The position numbers and the translations under genes are program-made. Source: Amphiura filiformis (Eukaryota; Echinodermata; Ophiuroidea; Amphilepidida; Amphiuridae). Taken from it: a DNA stretch of 64,000 nucleotides. Shown here in pieces: positions 3,300 to 64,000 of the stretch. The stretch lies in NCBI RefSeq assembly GCF_039555335.1, contig NC_092628.1:35610965-35674964 (forward strand), given 5' to 3'. Position 1 is the first letter of the stretch. Each line of letters starts with the position of its first letter. The notes under the pieces were generated by a model. It was not told where the DNA came from, did not search any database, and saw only the letters and a program-made list of their open reading frames with translations.

Positions 3300-3480
3300 A
3301 GTGCCTAAATAAATGAAGAATTGTACTTTTGTTCGCAACACATAAAGTTGCTCACCTGAAATTTTCGGTTGTTTACACCTACAACCTTCGTCAGCAGAAT
3401 GACCCAGTTCGTTGATCGATTTGATGACTCTTGACTTGTAACGTCAGAACTGGATCGTACACTATTGCTAATTTGCAGCT
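3300..3480 (-). pseudogene. Penelope-like element, C-terminal/3' remnant
   Basis: The minus strand reads SSDVTSQESSNRSTNWVILL followed by TKVVGVNNRKF. This aligns with the tail of the better preserved Penelope-like element at 63.3-63.8 kb (TRSLRHTSRVHDRVIPLTKA...). At DNA level both share CTGACGAAGG-TGTAG followed a few bases later by GAAAATT. No GIY-YIG domain remains here. The relationship is by eye. Confidence 0.55.
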
Positions 3481-3718
3481 CCCCCCACACACACACACTG
3501 GTCCTTATTCAGAGAAGGTTGGTTGGCCCGGATGTAGATGGCCTCTTTGACTCCTCTTTATTATTTACAGTGAGAATATTGTTACGAGTATGGAATTTTG
3601 TAAAATTCCGTATTTTTGACAATGAGAATATCGTTAGAATCCCGGAATTTTGATAGAACTAGATTAAAAAGAAGCGCAAAATGCTTGAATAAAATACAGA
3701 ATAATTAATAATAACAAC

Positions 3719-18339: not shown

Positions 18340-18450
18340 ACTTATAGATGATATGTACTTAAAGTATATGTAGCTGGGAGGAAAAGTCGTCCATCATTTG
18401 AAAATTTTGACCTTTTATATTGAAGATATGCATTTTCCCTTATTTTGACC
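18340..18450. repeat. Internal fragment of the TTAAGGG palindromic MITE family
   Basis: GTACTTAAAGTATATGTAGC, then GTCGTCCATCATTTGAAAAT, TTTTGACCTTTTATATTGAA and GATATG. These phrases match the interior of the complete copy at 56,038-56,699. Confidence 0.7.
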
Positions 18451-18967
18451 ATATGTTGCTTCTTCCAAAAAGTGTTCTGAAAAAACTTGTTTTACTGTTG
18501 ATAATGATGTAATTACTTATCCATAGGATATTGCTGACGTCCATACTCATTTTTCATGTACGAACCTATTGATCTTGATTCCTTGACTGATTCTATTCCT
18601 TTCCATGGTGCAGCCCCCTTTCGTTTGAGCATATGTGAAGAAGTGGATGTTCTTAAGAATCTTGATTCATCCAAATCTCCTGGTCCTGATGGCATACTTT
18701 TTAAAGGTTTGTTGTGATGCGTGTTATGTAGTCTTTTTAATATGTTTCTACAGCAACGTCAAGTCACTAGTGCTTGGAAAGAGACCAATGTGGTCCATAT
18801 CTATAAGGGTTCTGAAAAGCCTAAGGATGATGTAAGTAGTTATCGCCCAATTTCATTAACAAGCATCATGGGTAAGGTTATGGAAAAGTTAGTTTCTTCT
18901 CGTATAATGAACTTCGTCAATGAAAATGGTATTTTGTCTGATAATCAATTTGGTTTCCGCAGGGTCA

Positions 18968-19140
<173 letters not shown>

Positions 19141-19774
19141 TAAGCAAATGTTGTCAAATTTTTTAAATCTGCTTAGTAAATCATGGGATGATCGTAAAAT
19201 AATGTTGGCTTCTTGATGGTATCTTCTTGGATTTTAATTCTGCATTTGATAACAACATGTTGCTTCTTCCAAAAAGTGTTCTGAAAAAACTTGTTTTACT
19301 GTTGATAATGATGTAATTACTTATCCATAGGATATTGCTGACGTCCATACTCATTTTTTCATTTACGAACCTATTGATCTTGATTCCTTGACTGATTCTA
19401 TTCCTTTCCATGGTGCAGCCCCCTTTCGTTTGAGCATATGCGAAGAAGTGGATGTTCTTAAGAATCTTGATTCATCCAAATCTCCTGGTCTTGATGGCAT
19501 ACTTCTTAAAGGTTTGTTGTAATGCGTGTTATGTAGTCTTTTTAATCTGTTTCTACAGCAACGTCAAGTCCCTAGTGCTTGGAAAGAGACCAATGTGGTC
19601 CATATCTATAAGGGTTCTGAAAAGCCTAATGATGATGTAAGTAGTTACCGCCCAATTTCATTAACAAGCATCATGGGTAAGGTTATGGAAAAGTTAGTTT
19701 CTTCTCGTATAATGAACTTCGTCAATGAAAATGGTATTTTGTCTGATAATCAATTTGGTTTCCGCAGGGTCAGA

Positions 19775-19947
<173 letters not shown>

Positions 19948-21880
19948 TGTAAGCAAATGTTGTCAAATTTTTTTAAATCTGCTTAGTAAATCATGGGATG
20001 ATCGTAAATGTTGGCTTCTTGATGGTATCTTCTTGGATTTTAATTCTGCATTTGATAACCACATGTTGCTTCTTCCAAAAAGTGTTCTGAAAAAACTTGT
20101 TTTACTGTTGATAATGATGTAATTACTTATCCATAGGATATTGCTGACGTCCATACTCATTTTTCATGTACGAACCTATTGATCTTGATTCCTTGACTGA
20201 TTCTATTCCTTTCCATGGTGCAGCCCCCTTTCGTTTGAGCATATGCGAAGAAGTGGATGTTCTTAAGAATCTTGATTCATCCAAATCTCCTGGTCTTGAT
20301 GGCATACTTCTTAAAGGTTTGTTGTAATGCGTGTTATGTAGTCTTTTTAATCTGTTTCTACAGCAACGTCAAGTCCCTAGTGCTTGGAAAGAGACCAATG
20401 TGGTCCATATCTATAAGGGTTCTGAAAAGCCTAAGGATGATGTAAGTAGTTACCGCCCAATTTCATTAACAAGCATCATGGGTAAGGTTATGGAAAAGTT
20501 AGTTTCTTCTCGTATAATGAACTTCGTCAATGAAAATGGTATTTTGTCTGATAATCAATTTGGTTTTGATGGTATCTTCTTGGATTTTAGTTCTACATTT
20601 GATAAACATGATGAAATCGATCACAATGCTTTGCTTGGTAAACTTCATTCTATGGTAATTAGGGGTCATCTTCTTCGATGTATTCAAAAGTTCTTGTACA
20701 TGCGTAAGCAAAGATTATTTCCAAGGGCGTGGTTTCTGAAGGTGAATGTATGGGCAGTGATGAACTTAAACTTGAGAATCGGATGAAATCAAGCTGCTTT
20801 CCTGACCATTCCTTTGATTCTCATATTGGTAATGTTGCTAATAAACTTTTAAAACTCTGATCTCATAGTTAGATGTATCAGAAATATGACCTCCGTTGCT
20901 TTACTTAATCTTTACAACTCTCTTATTTTGTCTCATATTGTTTATTGTGCTTGTGCCTGGTCTCCATTTCAAAGGAATCATATTGATAGGTTGGAGAAAA
21001 TCTAGACGAAAATCACACGTACTTTGTTCTGCAAAATTTTCCTGAAGTTGATTTTGAAGATCGTCCTTCATGTTCTAAGAGGATTGTAGATCTGAAATTG
21101 ATTAAACTTTAGGATGTTTTGAAGTGTCAAAGATTAGTTTTTGGTTTTAAAATAATCAATGAGGTTTTGGAAAATTCTAGGCTTTTGCACCACCTTTCTT
21201 TAATTCTATGTTTGTTTCCTTCCACGTCTTTGGAATGGAATTCCCTCTGAATTACATCATGTTTAGCAGTGTTATATTTAAGCCTGAATGTAAATATTTT
21301 TACTTAAATATGCTTTTATGTTTTTATATAATAAAATAAAATACGGTGCAGATTGTTCACAAATCAGTTTTATTGATCTGATCAACCTCCTAAAAGCAAT
21401 GTAGTTTTTTTTTTCTTGCCAATTATTTTTTGATATTGTTCCAAATCCAGTCAAGTGCAATTCTATTGTGTTCTTATTTATTTTCATGTTTTAAATGTTT
21501 TTGAGTGTTTTAATTATAATATATGTATTTTTCATAATGCTATTTTTAATGTAAATGTCATGCAATTCAGCCGTTGGCTGCTATGTGATTTGTTAATAAA
21601 TATACAATATACAATACAACACAATACAATTGATCCCTAATCAAGACATTAAGGTCATTTTGGACATTTTGTTTTCCCCAAAATGACCATTATGATCATA
21701 TTTGGCCAATTTCTATTGTGAATTTTGTTATTCGACGTCGGCGATCTCATACTGATGAGAGTAATCAATTGGTCATGCACTATACATTAGTATGATTAGT
21801 ACTCCTTGTGTCAGTCTGTTAATTCATTGCCTACATTGGGCAAAAGCGACAATGACATTATTATATTTAAACTTTCTGTA

Positions 21881-22243
21881 AGGGGGGTACTACACCCTGT
21901 GGTAAATTTGACTATTTTTGCATTTTATCAAAGAATAATAATGCACTGGTAACAAAAGTTATGTATATTATTGGGGCAAGGATTCCAATTACTACACTGA
22001 CATTTCAGTGACTTACGACAAGCGGTTCAGTATATATGATAGGAAATGAGGTATATCATAGCGGTACCTTATTTCTTATCATAAATAACGAACCGCTTGT
22101 CTTGGGTCACTGAAATTCCAGTGTAGTAATTGGATTCCTTGCCTCTATAATATACATAACTTTTGTTACCAGTATGTTATTAGTTTTTGAGAAAAATGCA
22201 AAAATAGACACACATTTATCGAGGGGTGTAGTACCCCCTTAAA
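21881..22243. mobile_element. Palindromic MITE, AAGGGGGGTACTACACC termini (copy A)
   Basis: The left end AAGGGGGGTACTACACCC is mirrored by GGGTGTAGTACCCCCTT at the right end. Internal arms also match (AATTTGACTATTTTTGCATT against AAAATGCAAAAATAGACACA; TTACTACACTGACATTTCAG against TGAAATTCCAGTGTAGTAAT). Length about 360 bp. No coding capacity. Confidence 0.85.
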
Positions 22244-22324
22244 CAGGCAGCAACCTTGCAAACGCCGTCAAATTTAATTATATTGTATAATAAAAGCTAA
22301 TAAACTCAATACTATACTGATGTC

Positions 22325-22885
22325 TTTCTTCAAACCCTAATTAATACACCTTGGGATTTTTGCTTCACCGATTCACCTGATGTTTATGCTTGGAATAATT
22401 TCAAAGACCTTTTTGTTGCTGTTGTCAATGATGTTGTGCCCAGTGCGCTTCTTGGATAACCAAAATTATGATCAGGCTACTCAGAAAGTAGCCGTAGATT
22501 CCGGCGTAGATACAAAGCTGCTACATTATTATATCCAGAAAAAATAAAAGAACTTTAGAAACAAGGTCAATTACGAAGTGAAAAGAACATATTCTAGTTC
22601 ATCATGGTCATATCAAATCTCTTGCATGATGTTGGTCAAACCCCCAAAAGATTCTGGTCTTTTGTCAAAGAAGGCTGCTCCCTCTACCGGTGTCTTCTTT
22701 TGTTCGATAACAATAACTCCATTACCAATCATGTTGAGTTGACCGGATTGATGTGATTGACAAGTGTGCTGACCATCCTGGAATGTTGTTACTTTCGACC
22801 AAGAGTACGGATGGTGCTGGGGTGCTTGAAATTCTCTCCAAACTTGATAACTCTAAGCCTCCAGGCCAAAGAGCTTTTAAATAGA
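22325..22885 (+). pseudogene. LINE endonuclease-RT linker fragment (copy A)
   Basis: Read across frames: TPWDFCFTDSPDVYAWNNFK, DLFVAVVNDVVPSALL, then FRNKVNYEVKRTYSSSSWSY, HDVGQTPKRFWSFVKEG, and near the end VLEILSKLDNSKPPGQRAF. This is the linker between endonuclease and RT of a LINE similar to the one at 18.4-21.6 kb. KPPGQ replaces the usual K-PGPDG. Stops such as the one after the Leu at 22,459 show decay. Confidence 0.7.
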
Positions 22886-23407
22886 AATAGAGTCGCAATA
22901 GATTATATAATCTTTTGTTCGTTTGATGCCGATTAGAAGTTGCGACAGGCTATTCATAAAAGTGGTACCGAATAAAGGGGTTCCGCCATTAAATTGGTCA
23001 CTGATCCGGCATCATATTAACGCTCTACACAACAGGCGAGTATCAATAAGTGACCACACTACAGTCATGTGTAAGGGCAGTCATGTGTAAAGTGGTACCA
23101 TTGTACTCACGTATCCCAAATGTGTGCTTGTGTGGGTCTGAATTCTATAAGGAGGCTTTAGCTGTCGATGCAATCATCTTTACCACCCACCCGACGTTAG
23201 GCGTTTCATTTAAATAAATTGAATGCTCTTGCTGATCGATATTATTAGAATGTATGAAGGCTGCCATATCCAGTCCATATATCTATATTACACTATAATG
23301 GTAATCGCTATACGTATACATTTAAGTATAAGTATAGGCCTATAAAGGTTGTTTTAAAGAAATTTCCATTTAATTTGATTTTAAGAAGGAGATTGGTATA
23401 GAAATAG

Positions 23408-23690
23408 TGGCGTACCCAAAGAGGGGAGGGGTTGGGGAGGGCAGATTCACCTCTGTGAGAAGTCTTGGGAGGGAGGAGGGAGGAAGAGGGGGAGGGATAT
23501 GGAGAATGAGAGAGGGCTGGAGGAAGGGAGAAATAAAGAGATATAATAAAGACAAGTAGATAAATAGAAATATAAGGAAAATGATGGGAATGAGAGAGGG
23601 AGGGTGAGAGGGGACAATGAGAGCGAGGGAGTGATAAAGTGTAGGCCTATGAAAGAATAAGTACAGAGAAGGGAAAAGAAAGGAATGACG
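23408..23690 (+). repeat. Polypurine (GA-rich) tract (copy A)
   Basis: A long run of G/A-rich sequence such as GGAGGGAGGAAGAGGGGGAG. Reading frames through it give low-complexity S/L/P protein on the minus strand and are artefacts. Confidence 0.8.
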
Positions 23691-23937
23691 AATACATTTA
23701 ATAATAGTTATTAGGCCTATATAATAACTAAACACATAATAACACTGGGCAGTCATTCGATGATGTCAATGCCTTTATTCGTTACGTAATTAAAACGCCC
23801 AGTCAGATGTATTTCACACCTACCAAACACAACTCACCCAATTTCGCAAACTGGACGTTGAATGTACACTCTCATGAATATTGATTGGCAACATTTTCCA
23901 ATATGTCAACGCTCTAATCGGAAACAATAGAACAATA

Positions 23938-24005
23938 GACCCTGCAGAGCGTTGCTCCAGGCCCTGATGGCATCAGCGCTTGACTACTGAAATTATTTAC
24001 TCCGG
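23938..24005 (+). pseudogene. Short LINE RT motif fragment (copy A)
   Basis: Reads SVAPGPDGISA, a stop, then LLKLFTP. APGPDGISA is the conserved LINE motif just upstream of the RT core. Only about 20 codons are recognisable. Confidence 0.5.
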
Positions 24006-24617
24006 TAAGTTGTGTAGATGTATGTATCTTTAATATCAATAATACGGTCGATTCATAATACGATGCGCCTCCAGCGTTTGCTGGGGGAGAAATACACATG
24101 CACAGTGCTTAATGGGAAAATGTCGACATCCAAAGCCCGCGTAATGCGAAAACAACACAGGAACAAAATGCCCGACATAATGTCATTGTGTGTTTAAATG
24201 TCAATAAAATTATGTTACACGCGAATACACAGTTTACCAAGTTCATGTTGCATCTGACATGCTTTGACATTTGTCCCCATATGATCTTTGACCTCCAATG
24301 ATGCCACTCACCAAGTTTTAACCAATCGGACAAAGTTTAAAATAATTGCCCTTTGACCTTCGATTTCAACGAAATGTAATTTATAACACTTCTAATATTT
24401 TTCTCGATCTCCCGTATGAATTTGGACAAGTTTAAGGCCAACGGGACAAAGTTTTCAAATTTTGTTATTCGACGTCGGCGATCTCATACTGATGAGAGTA
24501 ATCAATTGGTCATGCACTATACATTAGTATGATTAGTACTCCTTGTGTCAGTCTGTTAATTCATTGCCTACATTGGGCAAAAGCGACAATGACATAATTA
24601 TATTTAAACTTTCTGTA

Positions 24618-24963
24618 AGGGGGTACTACACCCCTGTGGTAAATTTGTGACTATTTTTGCATTTTTATCAAAGAATAATAATGCACTGGTAACAAAAGTT
24701 ATGTATATTATTGGGGCAAGGATTCCAATTACTACACTGACATTTCAGTGACTTACGACAAGCGGTTCAGTATAGATGATAGAAATGAATATCATAGCGG
24801 TACCTTATTTCTTATCATAAATAACGAACCGCTTGTGTCACTGAAATTCCATGTGTAATTGGACGTAGCCTCTATAATATACATAACTTTGTTACCTGTA
24901 TATTATTTTTGAGAAAAATGCAAAAATAGACCAAATTTATCGAGGGGTAATGTACCCCTTAAA
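24618..24963. mobile_element. Palindromic MITE (copy B)
   Basis: Duplicate of the element at 21,881-22,243 with small deletions (for example GGTATATC lost near 24,790, and a disrupted right end GGGGTAATGTACCCCTT). Confidence 0.85.
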
Positions 24964-25059
24964 CACAGCAACCTTGCAAACGCCGTCAAATTTAATTATA
25001 TTGTATAATAAAAAGCTAATAAACTCAATACTATACTGATGTCTTTCTTCAAACCCTAA

Positions 25060-25604
25060 TTAATACACCTTGGGATTTTTGCTTCACCGATTCACCTGAT
25101 GTTTATGCTTGGAATAATTTCAAAGACCTTTTTGTTGCTGTTGTCAATGATGTTGTGCCCAGTGCGCTTCTTGGATAACCAAAATTATGATCAGGCTACT
25201 CAGAAAGTAGCCGTAGATTCCGGCGTAGATACAAAGCTGCTACATTATTATATCCAGAAAAAATAAAAGAACTTTAGAAACAAGGTCAATTACGAAGTGA
25301 AAAGAACATATTCTAGTTCATCATGGTCATATCAAATCTCTTGCATGATGTTGGTCAAACCCCCAAAAGATTCTGGTCTTTTGTCAAAGAAGGCTGCTCC
25401 CTCTACCGGTGTCTTCTTTTGTTCGATAACAATAACTCCATTACCAATCATGTTGAGTTGACCGGATTGATGTGATTGACAAGTGTGCTGACCATCCTGG
25501 AATGTTGTTACTTTCGACCAAGAGTACGGATGGTGCTGAGGTGCTTGAAATTCTCTCCAAACTTGATAACTCTAAGCCTCCAGGCCAAAGAGCTTTTAAA
25601 TAGA
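25060..25604 (+). pseudogene. LINE endonuclease-RT linker fragment (copy B)
   Basis: Near-identical to the fragment at 22,325-22,885. One visible change is GCTGAGGTG in place of GCTGGGGTG near 25,537. Confidence 0.7.
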
Positions 25605-26145
25605 AATAGAGTCGCAATAGATTATATAATCTTTTGTTCGTTTGATGCCGATTAGAAGTTGCGACAGGCTATTCATAAAAGTGGTACCATTGTTTCGAAT
25701 AAAGGGGTTCCGCCATTAAATTGGTCACTGATCCGGCATCATATTAACGCTCTACACAACAGGCGAGTATCAATAAGTGACCACACTACAGTCATGTGTA
25801 AGGGCAGTCATGTGTAAAGTGGTACCATTGTACTCACGTATCCCAAATGTGTGCTTGTGTGGGTCTGAATTCTATAAGGAGGCTTTAGCTGTCGATGCAA
25901 TCATCTTTACCACCCACCCGACGTTAGGCGTTTCATTTAAATAAATTGAATGCTCTTGCTGATCGATATTATTAGAATGTATGAAGGCTGCCATATCCAG
26001 TCCATATATCTATATTACACTATAATGGTAATCGCTATACGTATACATTTAAGTATAAGTATAGGCCTATAAAGGTTGTTTTAAAGAAATTTCCATTTAA
26101 TTTGATTTTAAGAAGGAGATTGGTATAGAAATAGTGGCGTACCCA

Positions 26146-26400
26146 AAGAGGGAGGGGGTTGGGGAGGGGCAGATTCACCTCTGTGAGAAGTCTTGGGACG
26201 GAGGAGGGAGGAAGAGGGGGAGGATATGGAGAATGAGAGAGGGCTGGAGGAAGGAGAAATAAAGAGATATAATAAAGACAAGTAGATAAATAGAGATATA
26301 AGGAAAATGATGGGAATGAGAGAGGGAGGGTGAGAGGGACAATGAGAGCGAGGGAGTGATAAAGTGTGGCCTATGAAAGAATAAGTACAGAGAAGGGAAA
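26146..26400 (+). repeat. Polypurine (GA-rich) tract (copy B)
   Basis: Duplicate of 23,408-23,690 with several 1-base length changes in G runs, as expected in such tracts. Confidence 0.8.
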
Positions 26401-26661
26401 AGAAAGGAATGACGAATACATTTAATAATAGTTATTAGGCCTATATAATAACTAAACACATAATAACACTGGACAGTCATTCGATGATGTCAATGCCTTT
26501 ATTCGTTACGTAATTAAAACGCCCAGTCAGATGTATTTCACACCTACCAAACACAACTCACCCAATTTCGCAAACTGGACGTTGAATGTACACTCTCATG
26601 AATATTGATTGGCAACATTTTCCAATATGTCAACGCTCTAATCGGAAACAATAGAACAATA

Positions 26662-26729
26662 GACCCTGCAGAGCGTTGCTCCAGGCCCTGATGGCATCAG
26701 CGCTTGACTACTGAAATTATTTACTCCGG
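26662..26729 (+). pseudogene. Short LINE RT motif fragment (copy B)
   Basis: Same APGPDGISA motif as at 23,938-24,005, in the duplicated segment. Confidence 0.5.
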
Positions 26730-27074
26730 TAAGTTGTGTAGATGTATGTATCTTTAATATCAATAATACGGTCGATTCATAATACGATGCGCCTCCAGCG
26801 TTTGCTGGGGGAGAAATACACATGCACAGTGCTTAATGGGAAAATGTCGACATCCAAAGCCCGCGTAATGCGAAAACAACACAGGAACAAAATGCCCGAC
26901 ATAATGTCATTGTGTGTTTAAATGTCAATAAAATTATGTTACACGCGAATACACAGTTTACCAAGTTCATGTTGCATCTGACATGCTTTGACATTTGTCC
27001 CCATATGATCTTTGATCTCCAATGATTCCACTCACCAAGTTTTAACCAATCGGACAAAGTTTAAAATAATTGCC

Positions 27075-27365
27075 CTTTGACCTTCGATTTCAACGAAATG
27101 TTATTTATAACACTTCTAATATTTTTCTCGATCTCCCGTATGAATTTGGACAAGTTTAAGGCCAACGGGACAAAGTTTACAAATTTGACCTGTGACTTTC
27201 GACCTCCGTATTCCCCTCATATCAAGGATTCCACCCACCATATCAAGGATTCCCAATCGGACCAAGTTAAAAAAATTTGACATTTGACCTTCGACCTCAG
27301 ATTTCAACCGAAGGTTGCTTAGAACACTCCTCGTATTTTTCTTGATCTCCCGTGTGAATTTGGCG
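27075..27365 (+). repeat. Two tandem units of about 205 bp
   Basis: TTTGACCTTCGATTTCAACG...CTTCTAATATTTTTCTCGAT (27,075 on) recurs as TTTGACCTTCGACCTCAGAT...CTCCTCGTATTTTTCTTGAT (27,282 on). Each is followed by CTCCCGT-TGAATTTGG. The first unit overlaps the end of duplication copy B. Confidence 0.65.
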
Positions 27366-27387: not shown

Positions 27388-30300
27388 TCAAACCTCACCT
27401 CACCTCACCTCACCTCACCAGGCTGTGTTCGACCATTGTTGGACGTAGCCCTCTTCATGATTCTTCTTCCACTGTTCTCTGTATCTTGCATTTCTTGTCC
27501 ATGTAGGTCCCATGTAGGCAGTAATGTCATCACGCCACCTCCTCTTCTGTCATCCTCTTGATCTTTTCCCTGTTCTTGGTTGCCATCCTGTAAGCCGTTT
27601 AGTCCATTTGTTATCTTCCCTTCGTGCAAGGTGACCTGCCCATCTACATTTCGCTTTTTTGAGTTTCACCATAATGTCTTTGACTTGAGTTTGACGTCTT
27701 ATTTCAGTGTTCTTAATTTTATCACTTAAGGTAATGTGTAGCATCTTCCTTTCCATTGCTCTTTGGGCTGTTTGTAGTTTCTGTTCCAGGTACTTGGTTG
27801 TTGTCCATGTTTCTGCCCCATATGTCATTGTTGGCAATACACACTGGTTAAACATTCTACTTCTCAGATACATTGGTAACTTTTTATCACATAGAATGTC
27901 CTTAAATATTCCAAAGCAACTCCAGCCTGCCTTTATTCTGATCAAAGCTTCTTCCCTGGTGTTGTCCTCCATCTTCACTGTTTGGCCGAGATATTTATAA
28001 CCATCCACCTTTTCGATAACATCCCCTTCAACTACAATGACATCCTCTGACTGGTGGTTTGTCATATATTTTGTTTTGCCCTTGTATGTGTTCAGTCCAA
28101 TCTTTTTAGTTCCTTTATTCAGATCATTTAACTGGACCTCCATATCCTTTACTGATGTTGTCACCAAAGCTACATCATCTGCAAATCTCAGATCTGTTAG
28201 ATTCTCGCCATCTATGTTGACCCCCCTCTCCTGTAGGTTCAGCTTTCTGAATATATCTTCCATTGCTGTAGTGAATATTTTTGGGGATATTACCCAGCAA
28301 ACTCAAAACGTTTTCGACATCATTCGCAAAAAGTTATAAAAGGTTGTCAGAAAACGTTTAAATGTCGGGTTATATAAAGGGTATATTAAGAGTATAAAAC
28401 GTTTTCATAACCTTAAAAAACATTTTTGATAATCTACTGCTCAGCAAACAAAAATGTTTTAGAGAAAACGTTTAAATGTCGGGTTATATAAAGGGTATAA
28501 AACGTTTTAATAACATTCCAAAAACATTTTTGAAAACTTGATACAAAACATTCTAAACATAATGTTATTTTGGGGTTGAAAAAATATTTTGCGAAAAATG
28601 TTTGCCCAAAATATTATCAATAACGTTTTAAAACGTTTTCATGACCTTTATATAACCCGACATTTAAATGTTATTAAAAAAAAAAAAAAAAAACATTTTA
28701 AGAACATTTATGTGTTTGCTGGGTTCAAATATTTTAACATAATGTTATTTAAGTATTGACACAATATTTGGCAAAAATGTTTGCAAAAATAGTTTACAAT
28801 AACATTTTTTTTATACTTTTAAAAATATTGTTGTAGCGTGTTTTCATACAAAACGTTTTAAAACGTTATCATGACCTTTATATAACCCGACATTTCAATG
28901 TTATTAAAACGTTTTTACCTAAACCAAAAGCCAAAATATGTGGATTTTGGCTGTGGCATTTGTGTAGATGTCCGCAAGAATTTGGACATACCCTTCATTG
29001 ATTCCAACTTTACGTAGTGCTGTAAAGAGGTCTTTTTGTTCCACTGAGTCAAAGGCCTTATATAGTCTATATATCCAATGCATAGCTTCAAACTATATTC
29101 ATTTGCCTTCTCAATAAGCAATGATAAGTTGGTTGATGGCATGCAGATGGTCTACTGTGGAATATCCACTTCTGAAGCCTGCCTGTTCTCTTGGTTGGTT
29201 TTCATCAAGCACTCCTTTTATTCTGTTCTGTATTATCCTTGTGAAAATTTTGTACACATGTGAACACAGGCTGATATGTCTGTAGTTTTTTATGTCTGTT
29301 TTTTCACCTTTCTTTTAAAGGAGATTCAGTTTTGCCTCTTTCCAGCAAACTGGTATCCTTTTTTCATCCAATATTTGGTTATAGAGTCCAGCTAAATGTT
29401 GAGTAATCCCCTCTCCTCCAATCTTGATTATATCACTAGTAATGTCATCTGTTCCTGGTGCTTTGCTGTCTTTCATCTCCTTTACCGCCATTTCCACTTC
29501 TTTTTGTGTTATACTTGGGATGGCTGATATGTCTGGTGATATTGTATTTGGTTTTGCCTCATTTGATTTGGAACTATGCAGGTCTTGATAAAAGTCTGCG
29601 CATACACTAAGTATGTCTTGCCTGTCATTTGTCAAGACACCGTCTTTTTGTCTCATTTGGTGCATTCTTGATTTCTTCCGGTTCAGCTTTGCAATATGCT
29701 GAGGCCCTCGTCCACTTTTGAGACTGATTTCTATTTGTTCTTTTCTCTTCTTTCTTATCCTCTGTCTACGTTTTTTCCTCACAGTTTTGACGAGCTCTCT
29801 ATATTCGCTCTTTTCGGGTATTGATTTGTCGATAATTTCTCTCAATTCTTTCCTCCTTCTGTCCAGGGCCTCTCTTTGTCCTCCTCAGTTGTTTGCTTCC
29901 TCCTCTTCCCTTGTGGAGCTACTTCTGCTGCCATTTCCATCACAGTGCTGGATATAATTTGGTATTTTTGGTCTAAATCCAACTCTTCAATGTCTAGTCC
30001 CTCAAAGCGATTTTTCAATTCTTCTCTTTTAGTCGTAGGATGTTAATCTTGCTTTTCTGATTTGCTTTTCATTTCTGATAAATTTAAGTCCTATATCTAC
30101 TTTTGTGATAACTCCACAGTCCTGGATAATTCCTTTTGGCTACTGAGAATAAAGTCTATTTGGTTTCTGGGGTGTCCATTGGGGCTTTCCCATGTCCAAT
30201 AGCGGTTTTTATTTTTCTTGAAGAATGTGTTGCCTATAACAGCTTATGCTGTGCTGCAAATTCCTTTGTTGGCTTCTATTGCCTTACTCACGTCTTCATA

Positions 30301-33010: not shown

Positions 33011-34390
33011 TTTCAATATTGTTAACAATATTGCTTGTATGTCAGCAAATGAAAGTTCTGTAATTTGTTGAAATTCTTCAATACTAAATTATTTTGAATG
33101 TCATCAAATTGTAAATCTCTAGTCACATTTTCGATGTATTAACAACTAGCTATGTAGCAAAGACGTTAACTTCATGTACAAAACATTAACGCTCTTATTT
33201 TGTAAACATTGTATACCCATAGCTACATTAATCAACAATAAATGTTCTGTAATTGTTCCTTATCCTTCATTTCTATTAGACTTTCAGTGTATTAGTAAGT
33301 AGATGTATATATGTATGTTATTCGTTTGTAAACACTTTATTTCATAAACATAGGATACCCAAAGCTACTTATTATGCTAACAATGAACGTTCATTGACTG
33401 TTAGGCTAAGTAAACGTTACAGGATAATATGTATTCAAATTCTGCCTCAAGGTTCCTGCTTAAATTGTGTTCAAGAATCATGTAAGATTTATTTGGCCCA
33501 CCTTTTGCCAGTAAATAGGCTGTCATGAATTATCCAGTGTATTTTTATTATACGTGCCCGGTCTTATCACTTGGTACACAATAGCTCACCAATCTGAAAG
33601 CCTGTTTTAATCACAATGGTCAGAATTAAATAGCCAAAATGATTAGACAAATAGGCTACACTGTCCATACACTGAGTACAGTCTCATTGCAAGATCATAG
33701 GCTAAGTACCGTAGTCCTTGTCATTTGAGGTATGTAAAAACATACTCATTATGATCGATGCGAATTATAGAAACAGTTCAAACAATAAAATAACTACACC
33801 TTTATCTTGACACTTCCTCATTTGTTCGCCCTGTTCCTTTTTAAAGGAATTTTTATTGTTACATAGGATAGGCTTGTCAAACCTTTGCCACCAAAAATTC
33901 TGATTAAAGCCACTTAGCTCATAAAGTGTACTTCTTATGATGTGTTTATATTATGCATACATATATATCGAGATTAGTTTCTTTGGCTCCGCGCAACGAA
34001 AATATGAGCTACATTATGGCAGTGCCGGCTTGCGATCACGACGACATAAACATCCGTCCAACACCTATGTTCCTTTCTATTTACGTCAGTGAAGAAAATG
34101 ACCAATCATTTGATAGATTTCACGCTCAAAAGGGCGCATGCGCTGAGGTGGTTTGAGAAAGCAGCTTATATTATGGCAACGCGAAATGTAGTAGTACACT
34201 TTATTCTTGCGTTGCACACGGATGTATTAGAACTGTATCATTGGTCGTCTAAATGAGAACGTTCGTATTACACACATCTATAGCTCTATATCTATCTGTT
34301 TGAAGATAATTTATCATCATCGCTGGGAATGTGAATTGTGCCAAGATAATCTAAATCTATTAAAATACATCGCTTATCTCAGTTTTGAAG
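33011..34390. other. Upstream region of the GPCR, non-coding
   Basis: About 1.4 kb, AT-rich, with no recognised repeat family and no convincing promoter element. Short TATAT runs (e.g. 33,960-33,967) are too common here to call a TATA box. Untranslated exons of the GPCR cannot be excluded. Confidence 0.35.
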
Positions 34391-35518
34391 ATGGGGAGTT
34401 GCACGAAAGTCTTAGACTACAACACAAGCATGATCATGCTAAACTTGAGCAGAGAAATGGTAACAGAAATGCAAAAGTCCCTGTTATACTCCTCGGTTGA
34501 TAAACTGATGATAGGTCGCATCTTGCCTCTGGTATTTGCAATGGGTTTAGCTGGAAATTTGTCATTTCTTTTTACCATGCTTCGCGTAAAATGGATGCGC
34601 ACCGTTACTAATTACTACCTGGCTAATCTGGCTGTAGCAGATTTGTTATTTCTTTTAGTCGTTGTTGGGGAGAAAATCATAGCGTACAGTAGCAGTCAAC
34701 TAAAGGGTGATATTTTGTTTGGACACGTCGCCGGTTGTATCTTAACTAACTTCCTGAGAAGAATCACATTTTACGCATCACTTTCTCTCGTCACGCTGGT
34801 TTCACTGGAACGATTTTATGCCATATGTCGACCGGTTCAACATCGAATGCTGAATGGCAAAAAGGGGACTTTTCAATTGGTTGCTATTTGTTGGGTGCTA
34901 TCAGCTCTTTTTGCCCTAATACTCATTCCAAGTGGCTCAAATCTGTGCATAACTGAAATCATCTGGCTAAATGTGGACGGTTATCAAGATTTGCCGAACA
35001 AGCTCTCAGCATGCCACGCCGTAAATAACAATTGGACGATTGCGTCAGAAGGACTTTTAACAGTTCCATTTGTCATAGCGCTTGTGACAAACACTTTCCT
35101 GTACTCTTCGATTATCATGAATTTACATCTGCGTGCCTCTTCAAAGAGCGCCAAATCTACACAGAGCATAGAAATCCGTAACCAAGTAGCGCGTATGCTA
35201 GTCATCAACGGGACAGTATTCTTCTTGTGTCTTGCACCTTTCCAACTGGCTAGCTTTACACGTATGGTACGTAACGCTTTGGGCTTGAGATCACTCCTCG
35301 ATTCACTCTCACTTACAGCCATTGTGTGGTTTTTCCGTGTCCTTGTGTATCTCAACAGTGTGATCAATCCCATCGTATACACAGCAACAAGTCCAAGATA
35401 TCGGCATGGATTTTTCATTGCATTTACATGTGGAGATGCTGAAGATAGAAAGAAGTACAGCAGGGGATCACAAGCAGCGACAAGTGCTACGGAAAAAACA
35501 TGTAACACAAAAATATAA
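34391..35518 (+). CDS. Rhodopsin-class (class A) G protein-coupled receptor, probable peptide receptor, intronless
   Basis: A 375-residue plasma-membrane seven-helix receptor. The first ATG of the frame is at 34,391. Landmarks: N-glycosylation sites N11 and N18; TM1 about 42-66 with GN (N56); TM2 with LAVAD (80-84, D84); C116 at the top of TM3; the TM3 end reads ERF (140-142) instead of DRY, then AICRPV; W168 in TM4; extracellular loop 2 with C186 and C208 and an NWT site at 214; TM5 with P226; TM6 CLAPF (280-284), lacking the W of CWxP; TM7 NPIVY (326-330). The C-tail is rich in S/T/K. Length and motifs are typical of the neuropeptide-receptor branch (TRH, neuromedin U or ghrelin-like receptors), but the ligand is unknown. 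The frame is clean with no TE motif. It would signal through a G protein on ligand binding. Confidence 0.93.
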   Translation: MGSCTKVLDYNTSMIMLNLSREMVTEMQKSLLYSSVDKLMIGRILPLVFAMGLAGNLSFLFTMLRVKWMRTVTNYYLANLAVADLLFLLVVVGEKIIAYSSSQLKGDILFGHVAGCILTNFLRRITFYASLSLVTLVSLERFYAICRPVQHRMLNGKKGTFQLVAICWVLSALFALILIPSGSNLCITEIIWLNVDGYQDLPNKLSACHAVNNNWTIASEGLLTVPFVIALVTNTFLYSSIIMNLHLRASSKSAKSTQSIEIRNQVARMLVINGTVFFLCLAPFQLASFTRMVRNALGLRSLLDSLSLTAIVWFFRVLVYLNSVINPIVYTATSPRYRHGFFIAFTCGDAEDRKKYSRGSQAATSATEKTCNTKI

Positions 35519-52625: not shown

Positions 52626-52825
52626 NNNNNNNNNNNNNNNNNNNNNNNNNNNNNNNNNNNNNNNNNNNNNNNNNNNNNNNNNNNNNNNNNNNNNNNNNNN
52701 NNNNNNNNNNNNNNNNNNNNNNNNNNNNNNNNNNNNNNNNNNNNNNNNNNNNNNNNNNNNNNNNNNNNNNNNNNNNNNNNNNNNNNNNNNNNNNNNNNNN
52801 NNNNNNNNNNNNNNNNNNNNNNNNN
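52626..52825. other. Assembly gap, 200 N
   Basis: Exactly 200 unknown bases. The round size suggests a scaffolding placeholder, so true distance and orientation across it are uncertain. Frames drawn across it are meaningless. Confidence 0.98.
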
Positions 52826-53445: not shown

Positions 53446-54890
53446 TTAAAAATTGCTGTGATAGTACGATGAATCCTCACGTTTTTCAACAACTACGCAT
53501 GGTGAATTTGTTCGAGATAGCCCGTGCGACTCAGGCTAAGCATACAATTTGAGATTTTGAGAGCCGCGGCCACACTGTTTTTTATTCTATGTTTTACGAT
53601 TTCGCATGATCAATATATGGCTGGCGTAACCGCCTAGCGATGGAGCTGCTACTGGCGTAGCTTACTTTTCGCCAGCGGAGCTAAATTGACCAATCATGTT
53701 AGATCTTTTCATTACGCTGGAGCCAGTGGATGCATCCTCGTTCCAGAGAGAAAACTCTTGCCAAAATTAATGTTTACTATGGGGATTTTAAATGAATCGA
53801 TTGTAAATAAACCACGACCAGTTGTACAGGATCAATACCATTGTTTGAGTAGTGTATAGTCAATGTTACCTTGCATGCATGTGTCATGTGTGTGTGGCGT
53901 GTTTGTTTGTTTGTTTGTCTACTGTGTCAGGCCAGGATCACTGACACCCACGGTACTGATACTCTCATACTATCACGGTGATCATATTGTTGAATGTTGT
54001 TGACTTTTAAATAATCATGATGCAGTCATGTCTACAGTAGAACTCACCACGACCTTTGAAGGACTTAAACCTATTAAAAGCTATTAAACCAAGATAACAC
54101 TCAATGAAAACAGCTCAACTATGTTACATCAGATCTTCTCTGGTTAAATACACACTGCACTTGTGTCTGTTTTACCTGTGCAATGAGCAATGAGCTGGTA
54201 TTATAGTTTCAGTTGGGTGAAGCGATTATAAAAGCGAACGCAAGGTAACAATACTGTGGGCTTTTGTTTACGAAATGAGACAATAGTCTGCTTATTGTTA
54301 ACCAGCGTTCTTGAAAATGAGAAGCTTAATGACTTAACACGGTTTAGAAATAATTTCTTCATATTTTTTGGTGTTATCTGTCGTTTTTACATATCCTTCC
54401 TAAAACACTAAAGTACCAATATTTCCAAACACCTAAATTAGCTAAAAATTTAGGACATGTTACAAAACTATATTTTCTAGAATTTCAGAGAATACTTTAA
54501 ATATTGGCGGTTATTTTTTACACAGTGACGTCAACTAGGCAATGGCCTATACTTCTAACATACACTATTTGTAGAGGTCACGCGTCAATGGTGAGCGCAC
54601 TGAGTATTGTGTATAGGAAAACGGACAGTAACTACAGTATGTATGGCCTACTACTAGTATATAAAGTAAATCCGAACTGGTTTGCAGTTTGCTGAAGGTC
54701 AATTCACAGGGACACCGCATAAGTTATACAAATTAGCTCGGCGATACACTGCAGATCGCAGAACTGTGTGCATAGTTTACCACCACTCTGCCTAGCTATA
54801 TAGTTATGTACAATACTGTATGAGTTTCTTATGAGTGCATGTCCATCTTAATAATAAGTCAGTTCGTACTTTTCATAAACTACTTTTTGA
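53446..54890. other. Non-coding stretch
   Basis: About 1.45 kb, with a short (GTTT)n at 53,902-53,921. No gene recognised. Confidence 0.4.
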
Positions 54891-55595
54891 ATCATAACTT
54901 TTGTGACCGAGGATATCTTGCAACAACGCTCGTCTGGCAAATTCTTAATGAATAAATTCGCTTCACGTAATGAGTAAGTCGTACTTAATTTGTCAGTTTT
55001 ACCTCCGAGTAATGAAAAACTCTAACATGATCATGATTGGTCAATTTGGCTCCACGGAGCAAAAAGTCAGCTACGCTGTAGCAGCTCCACGTTGTGGCGG
55101 TTGCGCCTACCATATCAGTATCCCATATGATATTTCTATTGCAAGAAAATTGTATTTGTTGTCAGGTTTTATCTTAAATACACTAACTGGAAATTAAATA
55201 CACTAATTAGTGAGGACCGGTATTTTGCTGTGGATATGTTTAACTGCAATTTGCGGGTAAAAATTTGAAATCCTGAGTAAAAATTGTGATCATATTGAAC
55301 TCTTTGAGAAAAAATTTATATAAAAGAATGCATGTAAAATCCAGCTGCAATACAATGTACATTATTGACACACTATCACTCTCTTTATCTACGGCAATAA
55401 TAGAATATCGATTTCAATCGAATTGAATACGATGCTCAGTTTTGAGTTTGTAGTTGACTACTAAGCGACCTAAGCGATCGATTGCTAGCCAATCAGATAG
55501 AACTCCTTTTCTTGCTCGGTGAAATACCAGTCGCCGTCGCTCACCAACGGAGTATTAAATTTATATTTATCGATAGGAAGTCGACACTGTGTGTT
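54891..55595 (+). repeat. About 0.7 kb repeat, uninterrupted copy (inverted paralog at 62,755-64,000)
   Basis: From TTTTGTGACCGAGGATATCT to AGGAAGTCGACACTGTG the sequence matches the reverse complement of 62,755-64,000 closely. Near 55,028-55,037 it holds the intact target ATCATGATTG that is duplicated around the Penelope insertion in the other copy. Apparent frames (e.g. 54,970-55,197) are unsupported. Confidence 0.9.
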
Positions 55596-62560: not shown

Positions 62561-63317
62561 TTTTCCAACCAGTAAAATGGGCCGTGGTTTGCTATGTCCA
62601 CATGTATGGGTCAGGGAATCCTATCACTTGGCCGTACTTGAGCCGTGGATGTATATTAATAATCCACTGAGTCGCTACATTAATGTTACTATTCATACAA
62701 ATCCATTTCCAAATTTTGTCATAGTAGTTCATGTATCTGCTATTTAGCGGGGCACAGTGTCGACTTCCTATTCGATAAATATAAATTTAATACTCCGTTG
62801 GTGAGCGACGGGCGACTGGTATTTCACCGAACGCAAGAAAAGGAGTTCTATCTGATTGGCTAGCAATCGATCGCTTAGGTCGCTTAGTAGTCAACTACAA
62901 ACTCAAAACTGAGCATCGTATTCAATTCGATTGAAATCGATATTCTATTATTGCCGTAGATAAAGAGAGTGATAGTGTGTCAATAATGTACATTGTATTG
63001 CAGCTGGATTTTACATGCATTCTTTTATATAAATTTTTTCTCAAAGAGTTGAATATGATCAAAATTTTTACTCAGGATTTCAAATTTTTTACCCGCAAAT
63101 TGCAGTTAAACATATCCACAGCAAAATACCGGTCCTCACTAATTAGTGTATTTAATTTCCAGTTAGTGTATTTAAGATAAAACCTGACAACAAATAAAAT
63201 TTTCTTGCAATAGAAATATCATATGGGATACTGATGGTAGGCCCCAACCGCCACAACGTGGAGCTGCTACGCGTAGCTGACTTTTTGCTCCGTGGAGCCA
63301 AATTGACCAATCATGAT

Positions 63318-63809
63318 CTGCGCCAATTTTTAGTGGCGCCAAAAGACAAAACTGAGAAAAAGGACGTAACTGGTCCAGTGTACTTGATTCCATGCCAGGG
63401 GCAGACTACAAGAGGCACCTGCAAAGAATCGTACATTGGAGAGACTGAACGTTCTCTCAAGACCAGATTTCTTGAACATAGACGTCCTAGCACAACTTCG
63501 TCTGAGGTTTCCAAACATATCCACATAGAGTCACCGGGCCATCACGTCGACCTGGACAAAGTCCAAATCTTGGATAGGGAACCTCGCTGGTTTGAGAGAG
63601 GAGTCAAGGAGGCCATCCACATCAGGGCCAACCAACCATCTCTGAACAAAGACGGAGGGCGCTACAAGTTACCAAGGTCTATGACCCGGTCATTACGTCA
63701 CACTTCAAGAGTGCACGATCGGGTCATTCCGCTGACGAAGGCTGTAGTACATGTAGCAACAGCTGAAAATTACGGAGGTAAATATTTTGTATTGAGATCA
63801 AGAGTTTAA
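63318..63809 (+). pseudogene. Penelope-like polyprotein C-terminus with GIY-YIG endonuclease domain
   Basis: 163 codons open from the insertion edge: LRQFLVAPKDKTEKKDVTGP, then VYLIPC, CKESYIGETERSLKTRFLEH, EVSKHIHIESPGHHVDLDKV, ILDREPRWFERGVKEAIHIR, ANQPSLNKDGGRYKL and VIPLTKAVVHVATAENYGGK, with a stop at 63,807-63,809. The GIY-YIG core is visible: GPVY, YIGET, the arginine in SLKTR, and the glutamate in the RWFERGVKEA segment with N in NQPSLN. In Penelope elements this nuclease nicks target DNA. The RT is absent because the copy is 5'-truncated, so it cannot move by itself. The frame continues upstream into host sequence only by chance. Related remnant at 3,300-3,480. Confidence 0.9.
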
Positions 63810-63854
63810 ATCTTTCTATATATGGATTACCAATACAGATGAACTTTCATGCTA
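63318..63854 (+). mobile_element. 5'-truncated Penelope-like element, 537 bp, with 10-bp target duplication
   Basis: Insertion defined by comparison with the empty site at 55 kb. CAATCATGAT precedes it (63,308-63,317) and follows it (63,855-63,864). The element contains only the C-terminal coding part and a short 3' segment. Target duplication of this size with 5' truncation fits retrotransposition. Confidence 0.9.
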
Positions 63855-64000
63855 CAATCATGATCATGTTAGAGTTTTTCATTACTCGGAGGTAAAACTG
63901 ACTAATTAAGTACGACTTACTCATTACGTGAAGCTTAATTTATTCATTAAGAATTTGCCAGACGAAGCCACGTAGTTGCAAGATATCCTCGGTCACGAAA

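Follow-up and report, generated by a model that had tools for sequence, protein, structure and literature searches.

In a window of 64,000 nucleotides of Amphiura filiformis DNA (the whole stretch analysed here), one copy of a repeat near 63 kb is interrupted by a block of about 540 bp bounded by a short direct repeat, and an inverted paralog of the same repeat, lying some 8 kb away, retains the empty target site. Judged by the motifs that it encodes and by its anatomy, the block is most likely the 3' piece of a Penelope-like element truncated at its 5' end, and we consider it quite probable that the RNA of such a retroelement was reverse transcribed into the 63-kb site after the repeat had been duplicated. 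The features concerned are collected in Table 1.

Table 1. Positions of the repeat copies, the insert and related features in the window
Feature	Position	Strand	Basis or remark
Target duplication, left copy, CAATCATGATC	63,308-63,318	+	last C possibly the first base of the insert
Target duplication, right copy, CAATCATGATC	63,855-63,865	+	extension of the direct repeat
Empty site, single CAATCATGATC	55,029-55,039	-	word search of the window
Insert, putative 5'-truncated Penelope-like 3' piece	63,319-63,854	+	536 bp (537 with 63,318)
GIY-YIG-type endonuclease core	63,378-63,647	+	frame from 63,318; motif positions and spacing-pattern test
Probable one-base frame slip, approximate place	63,676-63,679	+	downstream homology (YDPV.., GHSADEGC) in the third frame, not the core frame
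63-kb repeat copy, carrying the insert	62,753-64,000	+	blastn and MAFFT alignment with 55,591-54,899; reaches the window end
55-kb inverted repeat copy, empty site	54,892-55,595	-	blastn, MAFFT; 54,892 is the limit of the comparison, not a boundary
Third repeat copy, partial and diverged, without insert across the target site	53,615-53,722	+	alignment
Another relic of such an element, in a more advanced state of decay	3,309-3,557	-	68.5% identical to 63,597-63,821

The interrupted repeat and its empty site

The first-pass annotation had proposed that the 63-kb copy carries an insertion whose empty site survives in the inverted paralog, and this is borne out by the break in the alignment, by the direct repeat and by the identity of the joined flanks. 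Aligning the 55-kb and 63-kb copies gave a clean break at the insert and a clear duplication, their collinearity being broken only by the one extra block in the 63-kb copy. With the insert excluded, the two copies share 682 identical positions and differ by 8 substitutions and 10 internal indel events (690 aligned bases), a count that sets aside one further gap created by the window edge; over slightly wider stretches, with the ends included, another alignment has 677 identical columns, 17 mismatches and 21 columns with a gap. Sequencing error may be a source of the high share of indels, and for this reason the divergence of the two copies is not converted to a date. When the flanks 63,290-63,317 and 63,865-63,900 are joined, they form a 64-base string with an exact match in the 55-kb copy.

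A duplication of 10 bp, CAATCATGAT, had been described at the insertion. The direct repeat is real, and its length is either 10 or 11 bp, the next base also being common to both sides: extension to the right yields the 11-bp CAATCATGATC and extension to the left adds nothing. The insert accordingly spans 63,319-63,854 (536 bp) with the 11-bp duplication or 63,318-63,854 (537 bp) with the 10-bp one. In the window CAATCATGATC occurs three times, in exactly the three expected places, the mean in shuffled sequence being 0.09 and none of 100 shuffles reaching three. The block entered the sequence ..TTGAC-CAATCATGATC-ATGTT.. of the 63-kb copy. As for the exact ends that had been claimed, those of the insert stand, with one base ambiguous; the right end of the repeat does not, its supposed position at 54,891 merely mirroring the window edge. 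Since the 63-kb copy is cut at 64,000, the window does not show where the repeat stops on the right.

The third copy of the repeat is 78% identical over 116 aligned columns. It contains ATCATG once, and the 55-kb and 63-kb copies contain it twice each, which means that the block entered a short ATCATG tandem. A core of about 100 bp common to the three copies (53,615-53,722, 55,003-55,115 and 63,246-63,315) includes a small hairpin, GCTAC..GTAGC, seen by eye. Near the repeat copies lie exactly 200 N at 52,626-52,825, probably an assembly join. Elsewhere in the window two head-to-tail units of a 2.7-kb repeat (21,721-24,462 and 24,458-27,186) are 97.8% identical, and 18,448-20,566 is taken up by a tandem array whose units recur about every 0.8 kb at 98% identity; both arrangements reflect recent duplication or else the serial assembly of two haplotypes.

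A GIY-YIG-type frame within the insert

From 63,318 a frame runs for 163 codons without a stop, and VYLIPC, YIGET, TRFLEH, KEAIHI and SLNKDGG lie within its first 120 or so. The GIY-YIG domain has five key positions, occupied by Tyr, Tyr, Arg, Glu and Asn, and all five are found in this one frame, as Y22 (VY), Y39 (YIG), R50, E98 and N110, in agreement with the GIY-YIG-type reading frame first noted here. In addition, C26 and C35 stand between the first two boxes of the core and H54 and H67 follow them; an arrangement of this kind, with two Cys residues between the GIY and YIG boxes and His residues after them, we take to be typical of the C-terminal endonucleases of Penelope elements. PMC1564403 mentions, among the five positions, the C-terminal Asn and the Tyr residues.

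The spacing pattern of the motifs fits one of the 162 stop-free window frames of at least 70 aa, namely that of the insert, and 3 of 20,000 shuffles of the insert protein. This pattern was obtained by loosening a stricter one, in which the residue before the first box was restricted and proline excluded, and which matched neither the insert, I-TevII nor the window. With tight spacing the loosened pattern misses I-TevII; a looser version finds I-TevII, a single frame among the 162 and none of the 20,000 shuffles. The insert protein has no match among the profiles of Pfam, NCBIfam and PHROGs, and no meaningful match among PDB sequences (four sequences, best E 0.71, all of one ribosomal protein). 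For calibration, Pfam was given the N-terminal portion of T4 I-TevII, a sequence annotated as GIY-YIG; it scores only 21.9 bits, below the curated cut-off of 25, and the profile miss of the insert protein is therefore weak evidence. In hhalign the two proteins, compared as single sequences, reach a probability of 0.2% over 21 columns, which lie in the Glu..Asn part of both.

The length of the frame is by itself weak evidence as well, because an open frame of at least 163 codons, present in only 4 of 2,000 shuffles of the insert, also occurs in 40 of 1,955 random window segments. The likely sources of these 40 are the receptor and reverse transcriptase frames of the window. An uninterrupted frame for a rhodopsin-type 7TM receptor lies at 34,364-35,518 (+; 384 aa, Pfam 7tm_1 E 3e-36) and most likely marks the window as animal DNA, and partial reverse transcriptase frames (RVT_1), LINE-like by eye, lie at 20,328-20,786 (+) and 27,550-28,302 (-).

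A probable frame slip and the age of the insertion

A comparison of the insert with the relic at 3.3 kb suggests that the last 40-odd codons of the 163-codon frame are most likely read out of register, after an endonuclease core that is in frame. The motifs YDPV and GHSADEGC are retained in the third frame of the insert and not in the open one. The relic begins inside the endonuclease core, at the equivalent of 63,597, and itself changes frame, its core, YDPV and GHSADEGC parts lying in relic frames 2, 1 and 2; across the slip point, from GGSCKLAI to YDPV (GGSCKLAIVYDPV), it is locally in a single frame and is one base longer than the 63-kb copy. Three blocks within 63,676-63,747 hold 14 differences between insert and relic. 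In the third frame 10 of these are at third codon positions (binomial P 0.004), in the open frame 3; the test involves two damaged sequences only and blocks picked after inspection. In the upstream block, 63,597-63,653, third positions of the core frame account for four of six differences. Outside the test lie 63,654-63,675 (5 differences, 2 of them at third positions of the core frame), 63,716-63,720 (none), 63,751-63,755 (1), 63,758-63,773 (3) and 63,774-63,821, where 6 of 17 differences are at third positions of the open frame, without clear bias. The relic has a short (TG)n expansion and immediately precedes a degenerate GGGTTAGGG-like tract at about 3,285-3,210; no direct repeats longer than 7 bp surround the relic.

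It had been argued from the open frame that the insertion is young. We reject this dating in view of the probable slip near 63,676: the frame probably joins the core to a tail in the wrong frame, and its openness is partly accidental. Going by the alignment, the only bound on age is that the insertion is younger than the split of the 55-kb and 63-kb repeat copies, and the slip may be older or younger than the insertion. Because it holds no reverse transcriptase and its frame probably slips after the core, the insert is a dead fragment.

Probable assignment to the Penelope-like elements

The assignment draws on the motifs, on the published order of domains and on the anatomy of the insertion, and is likely, not proved. 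In Penelope-like elements the reverse transcriptase is followed by a GIY-YIG endonuclease, according to PMC11167929. The 537-bp insert contains no reverse transcriptase, as is expected if it is 5'-truncated; the truncation is likewise no more than likely. Apart from its self-match, the endonuclease frame had a single tblastn match below E 1 in the window, the 3.3-kb relic (E 8e-7), and blastn of the insert against the window matched only the insert and that relic.

After the stop of the open frame 45 nt of the insert remain, and after the stop of the other frame 88 nt, which leaves no room for a pLTR of the reported length; pLTRs of Adineta vaga measure 181-218 bp and are present in most of the families described (PMC3846280), and a partial pLTR could not be recognised without a parent sequence. 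No hammerhead, nor any other Rfam match at gathering scores, was found in the whole window, and with E up to 5 the region 62,700-64,000 gave one irrelevant match below its gathering score; a 5'-truncated piece need not hold a hammerhead. The duplication of 10 or 11 bp is close to the sizes reported for Penelope elements: among A. vaga copies lengths of 8, 9 and 10 bp occur, and several of the copies are 5'-truncated (PMC3846280). Some of those copies lack a duplication, so that its presence is not specific proof of the Penelope class.

Pattern searches with the one-sequence query, which reach close relatives only, yielded 10 matches in viral contigs and 88 in prokaryote genomes, none of them a confirmed relative in either set. 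The tblastn matches to phages (10 records, best E 2) and to plasmids (6 records, best E 0.09, where a hemF gene is annotated) were taken as chance.

Canonical Penelope-like elements (Penelope/Poseidon and the anole PAc, the latter from PMC11167929) resemble the insert in having a GIY-YIG-type frame near the 3' end and an AT-rich target; the insert, in contrast, has only about 540 bp, lacks reverse transcriptase, pLTR or tail, and hammerhead, and most likely slips in frame after the core. With the A. vaga copies (PMC3846280) it shares 5' truncation (here inferred), a short duplication in some and the argument from an empty site. There, an insertion into a host gene, flanked by pLTRs, was proved by means of the empty site on an allele; a second insertion, compared with a related (76%) element that is uninterrupted, showed no duplication. 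Here there is no pLTR, the empty site lies in an inverted paralog, and a duplication is clearly present. Arguments from empty sites have already been published for Penelope insertions (PMC3846280), and the present case is ordinary. PENS of the whiteleg shrimp (PMC3849965, accessible part) is similarly a stand-alone Penelope-type GIY-YIG frame unlinked to a reverse transcriptase; it consists of cloned fragments for which that part maps no insertion site, and the likeness is taken from its description.

Mechanism and alternatives

If a Penelope-like element inserted itself at 63 kb, its own GIY-YIG endonuclease would have made staggered nicks, and synthesis at the 3' end of the element would have been primed from the strand cut at the duplication's left edge. 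An early stop of that synthesis would leave only the C-terminal part of the endonuclease and a short 3' stretch, and fill-in of the staggered double nick after insertion would produce the target duplication of 10 or 11 bp. A comparable scenario is given for the anole element in PMC11167929, where the Penelope-like protein nicks AT-rich DNA and the RNA is reverse transcribed there, the later steps not having been validated; the element prefers AT-rich sites and 5'-ATT-3'. The nick at the left edge would here fall in ATTG^G on the minus strand and would fit that preference, which lends weak support since such a trinucleotide is common.

The same insertion could also have been made by other machinery: a LINE might have supplied the enzyme in trans for a Penelope-type RNA, or a reverse-transcribed scrap might have been used to mend a staggered break. 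The window does hold the two RVT_1 remains, read as LINE-type, with the Pfam matches at 20,328-20,783 and 27,553-28,302, and the insert lacks the 3' pLTR and tail of canonical Penelope insertions; on the other hand the insert ends at 63,854 without visible poly(A) or any other 3' tail of LINE type, and the size of the duplication is near those reported for Penelope elements, and we regard this route as distinctly unlikely. Very improbable, in our estimate, is that the block represents a compact endonuclease-only element with fixed ends of its own and not a truncated piece. Such an element would explain why both window copies, at 63.3 kb and 3.3 kb, hold endonuclease sequence only, and PMC6431247 lists stand-alone GIY-YIG endonucleases with the accessory functions of giant rotifer elements related to Penelope. 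However, the two copies differ in their start (63,318 against the equivalent of 63,597), the translation of the 63-kb frame shows no methionine within the insert up to the end of the core, and the frame slips near 63,676.

Scarcely credible is the reading in which the block is ancestral to the repeat and the 55-kb copy later lost it when its two 11-bp repeats recombined. Deletion between direct repeats is also able to leave a single CAATCATGATC, but the more diverged third copy at 53.6 kb is without the block too, so that a gain at 63 kb is a simpler account than a loss at 55 kb, and direct repeats that flank a block and arise by target duplication are the mark of an insertion. Reverse transcription of a Penelope-like RNA into the 63-kb site is the reading that we prefer.

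Implications for Penelope-like elements

A single dead fragment settles nothing about where reverse transcription starts. For the anole element, PMC11167929 places the start in vitro inside the beginning of the ORF, and insertions end after the pLTR, in the tail. Either the lineage of the present insert ends differently or this copy is incomplete at its 3' end. We think it unlikely that reverse transcription began at or near the unit's own 3' end, unlike the start of the anole element in the ORF of the next unit; were this true, priming sites would differ between Penelope lineages. What the window offers is the exact ends and the target of one Penelope-type insertion, and clean ends of this kind help in asking where reverse transcription starts across the lineages of the family.
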